Source of the DNA: a virus
Virus record (IMG/VR): IMGVR_UViG_3300017725_000001
Span: 60,178 to 124,177 of that record
Direction: 5' to 3' (one strand)
DNA: 64,000 nucleotides
The translations under genes were made by a program, and so were the position numbers. Within the stretch, counting starts at the first letter, position 1, and the number at the start of each line of letters is the position of its first letter. Under the pieces are notes generated by a model, which did not search any database, had not been told where the DNA came from, and saw only the letters and a program-made list of their open reading frames with translations. Below, in pieces: positions 10,397-60,300 of the stretch.

Positions 10397-11599
10397 TTAT
10401 TTTCCGGAAAAATGCTTGAAATTATCGTAGTAAAGAGCTAGTGTTGCCCATATAGCATCGGGATAAAGATTAGTATATTTGTTTCCAGTCTTTTTATAGT
10501 GTTCCCATACAGTTTCACTCATATCCATATCTGTATATTCTTTCCAGAAACTTGTATCGTCTCTGTTAGATAATGCATAGTGATGTAATATGTAATCACT
10601 GTTTTCTTTCCAAACTCTGTTGATCATTCTATTGTAAGTTTTGGCGTCATATTCGCGTTTTAAGCACTCTACAAGCGTCGTAATACTATATTGTATCATA
10701 AACAATGCATTTGATTCTAATGGGTCAATAAAGCCTTGACTAAGCCCTATAGCAACCGTATTGCCTGCCCATGGATTCTTTAACCAATTAGGATTCCATT
10801 TAATATTACGTGGTTGTTTACCCATAAATGGTGTTAAGTCTTTTGTATAATCTTTAAACTCTTCTAGTGCATCTTCATTACTAATATGCTTATCACTATA
10901 AACATAACCAGTACCAATACGAGAAGTTAATCCAATTTTAAATTGCCAACCATAATCACGTGCTATACTTCTAGTATATGGAATATGTTCATCTAGCTCA
11001 AACGGACAAACCCAAGCACTATTAACTAAATGCTTTTCATGTATTTCTACTTCAGTTTTATCGTTGACAAATTGTCTACGGAAACCTGTACAATCAATAT
11101 ATAAGTCATACCCCTCTGGTCTTTTATCAAGTGTTTGTACAATATGTTTTACATTTTTACAATTTTCTTTTACTATACGCCCTGCTTCTTCTGCGTGTAA
11201 ATGATATGCTACTGCTCTCCAACCTTTGGCATCATACAGTTCTTCGTTGATTTGATGTTTTGTAACTTCACCTGCTTTGTACTTCTTATACCAATCTTCA
11301 AATACATTATCATCATTAAACCAAAATGTAAATTTAAATTCATCACCATCTGGTTTATCCCAACCTTGTTTTATATTACCATGTTTGTGTATAGCATCAC
11401 ATTTTGACATCCATGTTTCTTCTTGCATACCAAAACTATCAAAAAAAGTTTTGATCATAGGAAGTGTACTTTCACCTACGCCAACTATTGGTATATCACT
11501 ACTTTCAATAAGTGTTATATCATAATCTGGAAAGTTATGCTCTATGTAACCAGCGGCCCACCATCCTGTAGTTCCGCCTCCTATGATGCAAATCTTCAT
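10397..11599 (-). CDS. Tryptophan-halogenase-like flavoprotein
   Basis: A 400-residue FAD-dependent halogenase-family protein. Visible features: nucleotide-binding GGGTTGWWAA (residues 7-16), VGVGESTLPMI (39-49, matching the GEAT/GEST loop), a lysine-rich region near 72-77 where the catalytic lysine of PrnA-type enzymes falls, DCTGF (169-173), and GWQFKIGLTSRIGTGYVYSD (217-236). The family motif WxWxIP appears only as WQFKIG, so true halogenating activity is uncertain. It is about 100 residues shorter than bacterial PrnA. Bacterial enzymes chlorinate or brominate tryptophan or indolic compounds using reduced FAD. It is the last gene of a cassette with RpiB and an SbmA-like transporter. Confidence 0.75.
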   Translation of the reverse strand: MKICIIGGGTTGWWAAGYIEHNFPDYDITLIESSDIPIVGVGESTLPMIKTFFDSFGMQEETWMSKCDAIHKHGNIKQGWDKPDGDEFKFTFWFNDDNVFEDWYKKYKAGEVTKHQINEELYDAKGWRAVAYHLHAEEAGRIVKENCKNVKHIVQTLDKRPEGYDLYIDCTGFRRQFVNDKTEVEIHEKHLVNSAWVCPFELDEHIPYTRSIARDYGWQFKIGLTSRIGTGYVYSDKHISNEDALEEFKDYTKDLTPFMGKQPRNIKWNPNWLKNPWAGNTVAIGLSQGFIDPLESNALFMIQYSITTLVECLKREYDAKTYNRMINRVWKENSDYILHHYALSNRDDTSFWKEYTDMDMSETVWEHYKKTGNKYTNLYPDAIWATLALYYDNFKHFSGK

Positions 11600-37674: not shown

Positions 37675-37703
37675 TAAAAAAACCCACAAAAAATGTGGGT
37701 TTA
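37675..37703 (-). terminator. Intrinsic terminator of the 37.7-37.9 kb structured RNA
   Basis: Stem AACCCACA / TGTGGGTT with loop TTTTT followed on the minus strand by TTTTTATGG. It lies directly after the closed RNA domain. Confidence 0.85.
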
Positions 37704-37926
37704 GTTACTAATACCAAAATAGGAGGGACTTGGGTACACCCTCAACCCCTCGACTAGATACCATTTCTAACCCAGGGAACCTGCAACCGCTCGGTAGAGC
37801 GATGTGACACAACGCATTTCTGCAACCATGCCTGAGTACCATCTCTTTACAGTCAAGTTCGACGCTCTGGTAAACGCCTCTTCCTTGCACTATTAACATT
37901 GGATGATCAATCCGCTGTTGGTATTA
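37704..37926 (-). ncRNA. Structured non-coding RNA of unknown class, about 220 nt
   Basis: The minus strand between a sigma-70 promoter and an intrinsic terminator is GC-rich for this genome and has no convincing coding content. Its two ends pair perfectly over nine bases (TAATACCAA, 37918-37926, with TTGGTATTA, 37709-37717), so the RNA is closed by a terminal helix that begins at the predicted transcription start. Internal helices include GAGGG/CCCTC enclosing GGGT-GTA-ACCC, CGCTC-TAC-CGAGCG, and GCAT/ATGC. It lacks tRNA, tmRNA and RNase P landmarks that I would recognise. The overall form (terminal helix, about 220 nt, own promoter) resembles stable regulatory RNAs such as 6S-type RNA, but identity is open. 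Confidence 0.7.
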
Positions 37927-37931
37927 TCTAT

Positions 37932-37960
37932 AATATATACTAACTTTACCTAAAGGTCAA
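37932..37960 (-). promoter_or_regulatory. Sigma-70 promoter for the structured RNA
   Basis: Minus strand TTGACC, exactly 17 bases, TATATT. The predicted start at about 37925 coincides with the first base of the terminal helix. Confidence 0.8.
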
Positions 37961-37979: not shown

Positions 37980-38132
37980 TTAGATTTTTTGCATTTTGGG
38001 GTCTGAGCTTAAGATATTCTTTTCAGCACGAGGCCTAGATAGCGGTCTTTCCATTTGCTTTCTATGTATTGCTTTATGTGCGTCTTCAGTTCGCTTCTTT
38101 TTACGAGCGATTTCAAAGTCTCTGTGATTCAT
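37980..38132 (-). CDS. Small basic peptide under glutamine-riboswitch control, 50 aa
   Basis: Reads MNHRDFEIARKKKRTEDAHK, then RKQMERPLSRPRAEK: a highly basic, helical peptide. The ATG at 38132 follows AAAAAGGAGAGTGTC, a strong ribosome binding site. A longer in-frame ATG at 38174 lies inside the riboswitch aptamer and is rejected. It begins 25 bases after the second of two tandem glutamine aptamers. Such aptamers, in their downstream-peptide form, typically precede very short genes in cyanobacteria and marine phages; those peptides inhibit glutamine synthetase in known cyanobacterial cases. Whether this one does is inference. Confidence 0.72.
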   Translation of the reverse strand: MNHRDFEIARKKKRTEDAHKAIHRKQMERPLSRPRAEKNILSSDPKMQKI

Positions 38133-38157
38133 GACACTCTCCTTTTTACAGTTAAGT

Positions 38158-38206
38158 GCGTTCCTTCGGTTCATTACCTACTTCCGTCTCTTACGAGATG
38201 AACGAT
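38158..38206 (-). promoter_or_regulatory. Glutamine riboswitch aptamer (glnA / downstream-peptide type), proximal copy
   Basis: Minus strand starts ATCGTTCATCTCGTAAGAGA. It then holds GACGGAAGTAGG and ends CCGAAGGAACGC. The three helices of this RNA class are visible: P1 CGTTC/GAACG, P2 TCTC-GTAA-GAGA, P3 GGT-AATGA-ACC. The conserved ACGGAAGTA (E-loop side) and GAAGGAACG joining sequences are intact. The aptamer lies 25 bases before the start codon, close enough to control the ribosome binding site. Known members bind L-glutamine. Confidence 0.85.
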
Positions 38207-38212
38207 GATAAT

Positions 38213-38264
38213 GCGTTCCTTCAGCCTTAGCTTACTTCCGTCCGAAATCTACAGGATGAACGAT
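38213..38264 (-). promoter_or_regulatory. Glutamine riboswitch aptamer, distal copy in tandem
   Basis: Minus strand starts ATCGTTCATCC, contains GGACGGAAGTAAGC and ends TGAAGGAACGC. P1 CGTTC/GAACG, P2 TCC/GGA with a ten-base loop, P3 AGC-TAAG-GCT. Only six bases separate it from the proximal copy. Helix arms differ between the copies while the binding core is kept, which is covariation within the window and supports function of both. Confidence 0.85.
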
Positions 38265-38300
38265 TGTACTATTATTTACTAAATTATTTACCTGATTTAA

Positions 38301-41613: not shown

Positions 41614-42777
41614 TTATGAGAATGATAGGTTACCAGCTGTAACACCAATTTTTGCTAGGTAGTCAGCCGCGTTACCAAGAGATGAAGCTTGGTTGTTTAG
41701 CTCTACATAACCGTATCTTGTCATGAAAGATACTGTTGGTTCGAATGTTGCTGGATCAAGTACTGTACCTGATGACATTAGTGGGATGTATGGACAATAG
41801 AATGCCGCCGCATCAATCTCACCGTCGCCTTTGTAACCTACTAGTACTGGGCTATCGTCTGCCGCGTACTGGTCAACAAACACTCTCATAGTACCGTTTA
41901 ATGTACCTACGAATTTAGTGTTAGTTGGTGCTTCAAAAGGACCTTCAGTTGTTCTTGCGAACGCTGAAGTTGTCGCTGATTGTAGTACTGTTAACATTGT
42001 TGGTGAAACAACAACGTAGTTACCTGCGCCACGTCTTGTACGTGTAGCAATTAAGTTAGCCGCTCTGTTAATAAGAACTGCTAACGCCGCGTGTTGGTCT
42101 CCAACGAAAGTTGCTTGACCTGATACATTCGCTTGATCGTATGTATCTGTTGCCGCGCCTGCTAAAGTACGTAGTGAAGTTAGAACTTCTTGGTCAATCT
42201 CAGCAGTAATTTCTTGGGCTAAAGCCTGCATAATTTCTGCTTCAACATCTAGACCATGCATTGAATTAGCATCTTGTGCCGCTTCAAATGTCCAACGTGC
42301 TGATAGTTTACGTGTTTTTGCTTCAACAGTTTGTTTCAATACTTGGATTGAAAGTTTACGACCTGCTTCTGCTTCTAAAGAAGAAGTTGAAGTTGGACCG
42401 CCTGTTGATGCGTCACCTGAGTAACCTTTTGCAATAGCAAATGGTGATAGTGCTTCGTCACCAGCCGCAACGCCTGCCGCTGTTTGACCATATCTTACTC
42501 TTAATGTGTGAATTTGTCCTACTGGACCTGTCATAGGTTGTACACCTACTAGTTCGTTTGCGATAACTGTTGGCATCACACGACGGATAACTGGTAGAAT
42601 CACTTTGTTAAGTGAAGCAACGTTACCGGCCATTGTAGTACCAGAATTAGCTGATTCTGAAAGATAGCTCTTTGTGTTTTCAAGAACTGATTCCATTACA
42701 ACTTTTTTGTTACCTTCTAAGCCATCTGTTAGGGCGCCTTTTGTAGCATCCCAATTTTCAAATAGATTCTGTGTCAT
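41614..42777 (-). CDS. gp23: Major capsid protein gp23
   Basis: A 387-residue T4-type major capsid protein. Recognisable blocks: VILPVIRRVMPTVIANELVG then VQPMTGPVGQIHTLRVRYG, ARWTFEAAQDANSMHGLDVE, AEITAEIDQEVLTSLRTLA, RTRRGAGNYVVVSPTMLTVL. It is shorter than T4 gp23 (521 residues), mainly in the insertion domain, as in other marine T4-like phages. The first 60 residues are probably the propeptide removed by gp21. It is the last gene of the 45433-41614 head operon and is followed by a strong terminator. Confidence 0.95.
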   Translation of the reverse strand: MTQNLFENWDATKGALTDGLEGNKKVVMESVLENTKSYLSESANSGTTMAGNVASLNKVILPVIRRVMPTVIANELVGVQPMTGPVGQIHTLRVRYGQTAAGVAAGDEALSPFAIAKGYSGDASTGGPTSTSSLEAEAGRKLSIQVLKQTVEAKTRKLSARWTFEAAQDANSMHGLDVEAEIMQALAQEITAEIDQEVLTSLRTLAGAATDTYDQANVSGQATFVGDQHAALAVLINRAANLIATRTRRGAGNYVVVSPTMLTVLQSATTSAFARTTEGPFEAPTNTKFVGTLNGTMRVFVDQYAADDSPVLVGYKGDGEIDAAAFYCPYIPLMSSGTVLDPATFEPTVSFMTRYGYVELNNQASSLGNAADYLAKIGVTAGNLSFS

Positions 42778-60016: not shown

Positions 60017-60300
60017 TGGCTACTTACTCATCAGATAGTTTATATAGAAATACAGAAGTAGTAGGTGAAAAATATTTAGATCATTTAAATATTGATTCTA
60101 TTGATATTGATAGCACTTCTACAAAAAGTATTAAACTAGAACTAAAACATCAAAATAAACCAGACTTGTTAGCACATGAATTATATGGCAATGCAAAGTT
60201 ATGGTGGGTGTTTTCGTTGTTTAATCAAGATAAACTAAAAGACCCTATTATAGATTTTAAAGAAGGTATCACAATAAAAGTTCCAGTAAGGTTCTCGTAA
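60016..60300 (+). CDS. gp53: Baseplate wedge gp53-like protein
   Basis: A 94-residue protein. The C-terminal half (HELYGNAKLWWVFSLFNQDK, then EGITIKVPVRF) is the LysM-like segment of gp53 wedge proteins in marine T4-like phages. gp53 joins wedges to each other in the baseplate. It is half the length of T4 gp53 (196), the missing part being C-terminal. Overlaps both neighbours by one base. Confidence 0.68.
   Translation: MATYSSDSLYRNTEVVGEKYLDHLNIDSIDIDSTSTKSIKLELKHQNKPDLLAHELYGNAKLWWVFSLFNQDKLKDPIIDFKEGITIKVPVRFS

Follow-up and report, generated by a model that had tools for sequence, protein, structure and literature searches.

Two complete glutamine riboswitch aptamers of the glnA type lie in tandem directly upstream of a gene for a small, strongly basic protein in the window, i.e. 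the whole stretch of 64,000 nt of viral DNA analysed here (IMG/VR record IMGVR_UViG_3300017725_000001, positions 60,178 to 124,177). The same type of sensor was found before very small basic proteins in hundreds of marine phages, which suggests a late gene tuned to host nitrogen. What is new is the cassette pattern itself, comprising an aptamer, a late promoter, a hairpin around the Shine–Dalgarno (SD) sequence and a tiny basic product. The explanation that we favour, with moderate confidence, is that the cassette acts late as a translational switch that senses glutamine and controls a small basic effector of the phage, with glutamine synthetase as the first-candidate target.

An earlier note, made from the DNA letters, had taken the sequence for a phage genome, and the window indeed encodes a T4-type gp20 (E 8e-108), gp23 (E 1e-100) and tail sheath, identifying it as a T4-like phage. 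The major capsid protein gp23 (window 41614–42777, minus strand) is closest (65–70 %) to those of large T4-like phages such as Sinorhizobium phage Phosso and PA5oct, not to those of cyanophages or Mosig; these nearest phages infect varied hosts, and gp23 is therefore uninformative on the host. A tryptophan-halogenase-like protein (PF04820, E 2.8e-76) is encoded at 10397–11599 (minus strand).

Tandem glutamine aptamers in the window

When the window was compared with Rfam using cmscan, three matches above threshold were obtained, comprising one tRNA and two copies of RF01739 (Glutamine, glnA leader) on the minus strand. The upstream copy, aptamer 1 (38210–38264), scored 58.6 bits (E 2.3e-10; 58.7 bits with our own model) and the gene-proximal copy, aptamer 2 (38155–38206), scored 65.7 bits (E 2.6e-12; 65.1 bits with our own model); both are full length and both exceed the gathering score of 35 bits. 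The type-2 glutamine riboswitch (Downstream-peptide/Glutamine-II, RF01704) reached no more than 11.9 bits, its threshold being 33, and the aptamers were therefore assigned to the glnA type. The model ends of the two copies are 3 nt apart and their P1 helices 9 nt apart. A common core (CGUUCAUC, GACGGAAGUA and GAAGGAACGC) is found in both, whilst the P2 and P3 arms differ.

The 50-codon ORF starts 22 nt past the end of aptamer 2. The earlier reading of this region held in part: it had described two complete glutamine aptamers that keep the ligand core whilst their helix arms differ, followed by a small basic peptide under their putative control, and had proposed the Rfam search, in which both copies proved to be type-1 and RF01704 failed. 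Its spacing of six bases corresponds to neither of the distances measured.

In a set of 35 viral aptamers the core was invariant and 92 % of the P2/P3 cells were paired, with 57 double-change cells compared with 19.5 ± 3.7 in shuffles; both sides had changed in all eight P2/P3 pairs. P1 was fixed by the search pattern in this set and so provides no evidence. Judged from its sequence, the window RNA is probably a riboswitch that binds glutamine and changes expression.

The 50-aa basic protein and its relatives

The protein (MNHRDFEIARKKKRTEDAHKAIHRKQMERPLSRPRAEKNILSSDPKMQKI; minus strand, 37980–38132, start at 38132) has 50 residues, a net charge of +8 and a pI of 10.7, and its gene is preceded by the SD sequence AGGAG (38139–38143, minus strand). 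A longer frame of 64 aa from the in-frame ATG at 38174 was rejected, as this start lies inside aptamer 2 and the ATG is not conserved. A profile search of IMG/VR for this protein family, designated family A, gave matches on 523 stretches; a relative is encoded on 470 of these, and 80 loci were retained. The median dN/dS among the relatives was 0.17 (1167 pair comparisons, all <1), indicating that the ORF is a real gene.

An aptamer was detected directly upstream, at a near-fixed position, in all 80 kept loci using the covariance model built here, and since the search had used the peptide only, the presence of the aptamer is an independent observation. Family A relatives occur in the pelagiphages HTVC023P, Mosig and HTVC103P/104P; in Mosig the aptamer (L133 1901–1954) stands before the family A ORF at 1971. 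Three divergent relatives (in HTVC023P, HTVC104P and L218) were without a riboswitch. The last of these, at L218 3889–4041 with 43 % identity, was the one match in 84,980 bacterial and archaeal genomes and lies on a contig, perhaps of phage origin, of a Flavobacterium single-cell genome.

The AlphaFold2 model of the protein (mean pLDDT 78) consists of one helix (residues 3–28) followed by a tail, and the conserved C-terminal SRPRxEKNILSxDPRLQKI of family A has low confidence in it. Foldseek and a PDB sequence search returned nothing useful, and no relative at useful significance was found in Pfam, PHROG, NCBIfam or PDB. DUF4278, the domain that makes up the N-terminal part of IF17, a cyanobacterial inhibitor of glutamine synthetase (PMC6316151), was likewise not detected in the window peptide.

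Glutamine riboswitches before tiny basic proteins in other phages

A pattern scan based on the aptamer only retrieved at least 120 viral stretches, and the first gene past the aptamer could be called in 118. Among the matches listed, all 102 distinct products were of 78 aa or fewer and net positive. Their median charge per residue was +0.156, whereas 181 further small genes on these contigs gave 0.0 (P about 2e-20, from related sequences that are not independent). No nitrogen gene was found directly after a viral aptamer among the matches listed from these stretches.

The products belong to at least five families without detectable mutual relation by profile comparison (hhalign): family A; family B, of 27–51 aa and often with WC near the N-terminus; family D, with GTSGY; family E, with MTKYQ..NPFYP; and the YRG family, peptides with the motif YRGVxY. 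A common origin of the families was considered and received no support from hhalign. Some members of family E (L041, L059 and L128) have an internal YRG motif. A YRG peptide gave a weak match to DUF4278 (E 0.0013, below the Pfam cut-off).

Cassette versions are present in the isolated phages Mosig (host SAR11), Melnitz (OM43) and P-TIM68 (Prochlorococcus). In P-TIM68 (L135 2049–2266, phage positions 194016–194233), a glutamine riboswitch of 35.4 bits is followed by a 47-aa peptide, annotated as hypothetical, that contains the YRG motif twice and matches DUF4278 weakly (E 1.1e-5, also below the cut-off).

Significance of the tandem arrangement

Tandem aptamers were found at nine of 120 loci in the aptamer scan (among the matches listed) and at three of 80 in the peptide scan (L138, L139 and L140); the other 77 kept family A loci have a single aptamer, so that the tandem is the exception. 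Each of 19 records examined held one riboswitch locus, single or tandem. The window has the arrangement of a cooperative tandem, with two complete aptamers before one expression platform, and in its lineage the second aptamer would be expected to give a sharper or shifted response. A neutral recent duplication with no cooperative function is a substantial possibility, if not the reading that we prefer: within family A the tandem is confined to one narrow lineage (the window, L042 and L138–L140), as would suit such an event, yet both cores are intact whilst the helix arms differ, and tandems whose model ends are separated by 0–3 nt turn up again and again, in families A, B, D, E and YRG. It is this recurrence across families on which the case for a function of the tandem is built.

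Late promoter and SD hairpin

A T4-late-promoter-like TAAATA is located at 38273–38278 (minus strand), 10 nt before P1 of aptamer 1. Of 123 distinct upstream sequences, 65 had this motif ending no more than 16 nt from the aptamer, compared with about 1 % expected; its most frequent place was 6 nt before P1. By the T4 rule, the transcript of such a late promoter starts at or just before the aptamer.

The linker between P1 and the ATG contains a hairpin (CACUU..GAGUG, 38135–38158, minus strand) that encloses the SD sequence and abuts P1 of aptamer 2, and is a candidate expression platform. At the loci compared, the 5′ arm directly follows P1 and the SD sequence lies within or just past the 3′ side. 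The arms covary: the mean stem length was 5.01 bp, compared with 3.99 ± 0.11 bp when arms were swapped between loci, and the pairs CACUU/GAGUG, CACCU/GGGUG, CAUCU/AGAUG and CAAUC/GAUUG change together across families. The mean folding energy of the linkers was −5.1 kcal/mol compared with −2.6 kcal/mol in shuffles, a difference weakened by some linkers having been cut at a false GTG start. The hairpin is missing from many YRG loci. Since a covarying, SD-enclosing hairpin adjoins P1, control is likely to be translational.

When P1 was forced or blocked in folding, the predicted accessibility of the SD sequence was nearly equal (0.39 with P1 and 0.37 without), and because P1 alters it so little, secondary structure accounts for neither the switching step nor its sign; the sign of the switch is taken solely from cyanobacterial precedent, where the aptamer before DUF4278/IF17 is an ON switch (PMC6316151). 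If P1 stacks coaxially on the hairpin, an OFF switch could equally result, in which P1, stabilised by glutamine, would stack on the SD hairpin and repress the peptide when nitrogen is plentiful. The zero gap between P1 and the hairpin at many loci of several families fits such an arrangement; as the cyanobacterial type-1 and type-2 glutamine riboswitches both activate expression (PMC6316151), we consider repression a genuine but less probable alternative.

A manA-type RNA downstream of the cassette

Past the riboswitch–peptide unit the window (37676–37960, minus strand) contains a structured RNA related to manA (RF01745), which was also present at L011, L052, L049, L070, L004, L138–L217 and others. 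This RNA, of 200–240 nt, follows most family A loci and several B and D loci. The window copy (37713–37912) was found with cmscan in E-value mode and with nhmmer, the default search with the manA model giving no match; it is full length and scores 46 bits, below the gathering score of 55.2, whereas the Mosig copy, 73.6 % identical, passes with 64 bits. Compensatory changes were seen in 29 of 42 consensus pairs.

The window copy has a Sigma70-like promoter (TTGACC-17 nt-TATATT, 37932–37960) upstream and an intrinsic terminator (37676–37703) directly downstream, unlike a cis-regulatory 5′ leader of a coding gene. A TTGAC-TAnnnT promoter, expected by chance in 1.7 %, stood before 44 of the 46 distinct copies; of the 38 distinct copies with enough flank, at least 30 were followed by a terminator. 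The Mosig copy is followed by a rubrerythrin gene, with no terminator detected. From these signals the window RNA looks like a separate, stand-alone RNA gene rather than a leader. A freshwater-2 RNA (RF02980) lies downstream of the manA-type RNA at L011 4540–4623, L052 5566–5649 and L097 3440–3357; in L011 and L052 a late-promoter-like TAAATA stands just before it, so that here too a structured leader is found at a late promoter.

Proposed function and the glutamine synthetase question

In the explanation favoured here, a T4-type late promoter would start the transcript at or just before the aptamer or aptamers; binding of glutamine would fold the aptamer, and as P1 abuts the SD hairpin, access of ribosomes to the 50-codon gene would change. 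By analogy with cyanobacteria, high glutamine would turn the switch ON. The product, being small and strongly basic, would most likely bind, as IF7 and IF17 do, an acidic protein from the nitrogen assimilation of the host, with glutamine synthetase as the first candidate; the cyanobacterial inhibitor acts electrostatically via arginines (PMC6316151). This is considered the best explanation because of the two RF01739 matches, the P2/P3 covariation, the 80/80 association and the 102/102 small positive products, together with the late-promoter enrichment, the swapped-arm hairpin test, the cyanobacterial precedent, the DUF4278-like peptide of P-TIM68 and the YRG motif in family E. Against it stand the window peptide, which has no sequence or fold relation to any inhibitor, the small effect of P1 on SD accessibility and the three divergent relatives lacking a riboswitch.

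The earlier note had proposed comparing the peptide with glutamine synthetase inactivating factors. In size and charge the peptide resembles IF7 and IF17, but the comparison, made with Pfam, NCBIfam and PHROG models rather than by direct alignment with IF7, revealed no relation in sequence, there being no match to DUF4278 or to any other of these models. Fifteen phage records with the riboswitch, a number of which are fragments, yielded no glutamine synthetase domain or gene. An effect on glutamine synthetase is indirectly favoured by the products being generally small and strongly basic and by some phage peptides being DUF4278-like, and by analogy a role of the peptide as a glutamine synthetase inhibitor is plausible.

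In another reading the riboswitch is real, but the basic peptides have targets other than nitrogen assimilation, such as host transcription, ribosomes, the membrane, lysis or the virion, with glutamine serving only as a late gauge of host state. Placement at a late promoter, the existence of at least five families with no detectable homology and the failure to find a nitrogen gene directly after a viral aptamer (among the matches listed) would all suit this, as would podovirus relatives without a riboswitch that lie beside other genes, one near a peptidase M15 gene. As unrelated families converge on like size and charge, and as one family is similar to the IF17 domain family, we regard it as a real but less probable possibility. 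Chance resemblance or a decayed aptamer, for which no supporting point was found, is already refuted at the sequence level by the RF01739 scores, covariation, strict gene association and purifying selection, and is given practically no credence.

A wider form of the favoured explanation, which we consider unlikely but worth stating, is that marine T4-like phages repeatedly and independently brought small basic proteins of unrelated families under the control of glutamine riboswitches, giving them viral counterparts to the cyanobacterial glutamine synthetase inhibitors. If true, viruses would have converged on controlling nitrogen assimilation in their hosts, with glutamine as the gate late in infection, and this would extend such counterparts to phages of heterotrophs (SAR11 and OM43), hosts not reported to use such inhibitors.

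Comparison with known systems

Earlier work had already established this class of aptamer, the existence of tandem copies and, in cyanobacteria, small peptides as targets (PMC2864571, PMC6316151), tandem glnA aptamers having been described in PMC2864571, and glutamine riboswitches have been reported in T4-like marine phages (PMC9004378, PMC9964418, PMC9602691). No description of the phage rule, family A, the hairpin or the stand-alone manA RNA was found in the open literature, subscription papers and preprints being outside the search. Phage glutamine riboswitches, which had looked like scattered oddities, now form a single widespread cassette whose output is defined as a very small, basic, late protein, and the cassette offers a testable handle on how viruses read, and perhaps steer, nitrogen assimilation in abundant ocean bacteria.

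The Synechocystis gifB leader (RF01739) is alike in aptamer sequence and structure and in the small basic protein gene that follows, and its class includes tandems (PMC2864571). The window copy differs in being in a T4-like phage and in having a late promoter, an SD-enclosing hairpin and a product that is not DUF4278/IF17. IF7 and IF17 are also small and very basic, and IF17 is under glutamine-riboswitch control, but the window peptide has no detectable similarity to them and the window host is not known to be a cyanobacterium. The Downstream-peptide/Glutamine-II RNA (RF01704) similarly leads small peptide genes in marine picocyanobacteria, whereas the window scores only 11.9 bits against its threshold of 33. 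Rfam files manA (RF01745) as a cis-regulatory leader, whereas the phage copies carry their own promoter and usually a terminator.

The riboswitches of Melnitz, Mosig and AG-345-P14 (PMC9004378) belong to the same aptamer class and, like the window, to marine T4-like phages. In PMC9004378 the Melnitz switch is linked to tmRNA, whereas the common target here is a small basic ORF. In Melnitz EXVC044M (L137 2999–3165; 46398–46564, plus strand), the aptamer overlaps the annotated tmRNA at the 3′ end of the latter, and next come an SD sequence and an unannotated basic ORF of 32 codons (MTLYQQWCYLKAQKEYRRRQKILMYFRIRLKG, family B), the record annotating an ORF on the opposite strand instead. The cassette suggests that the Melnitz switch has a main target other than the published tmRNA. 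Mosig has a family A peptide directly past the aptamer, as in the window.
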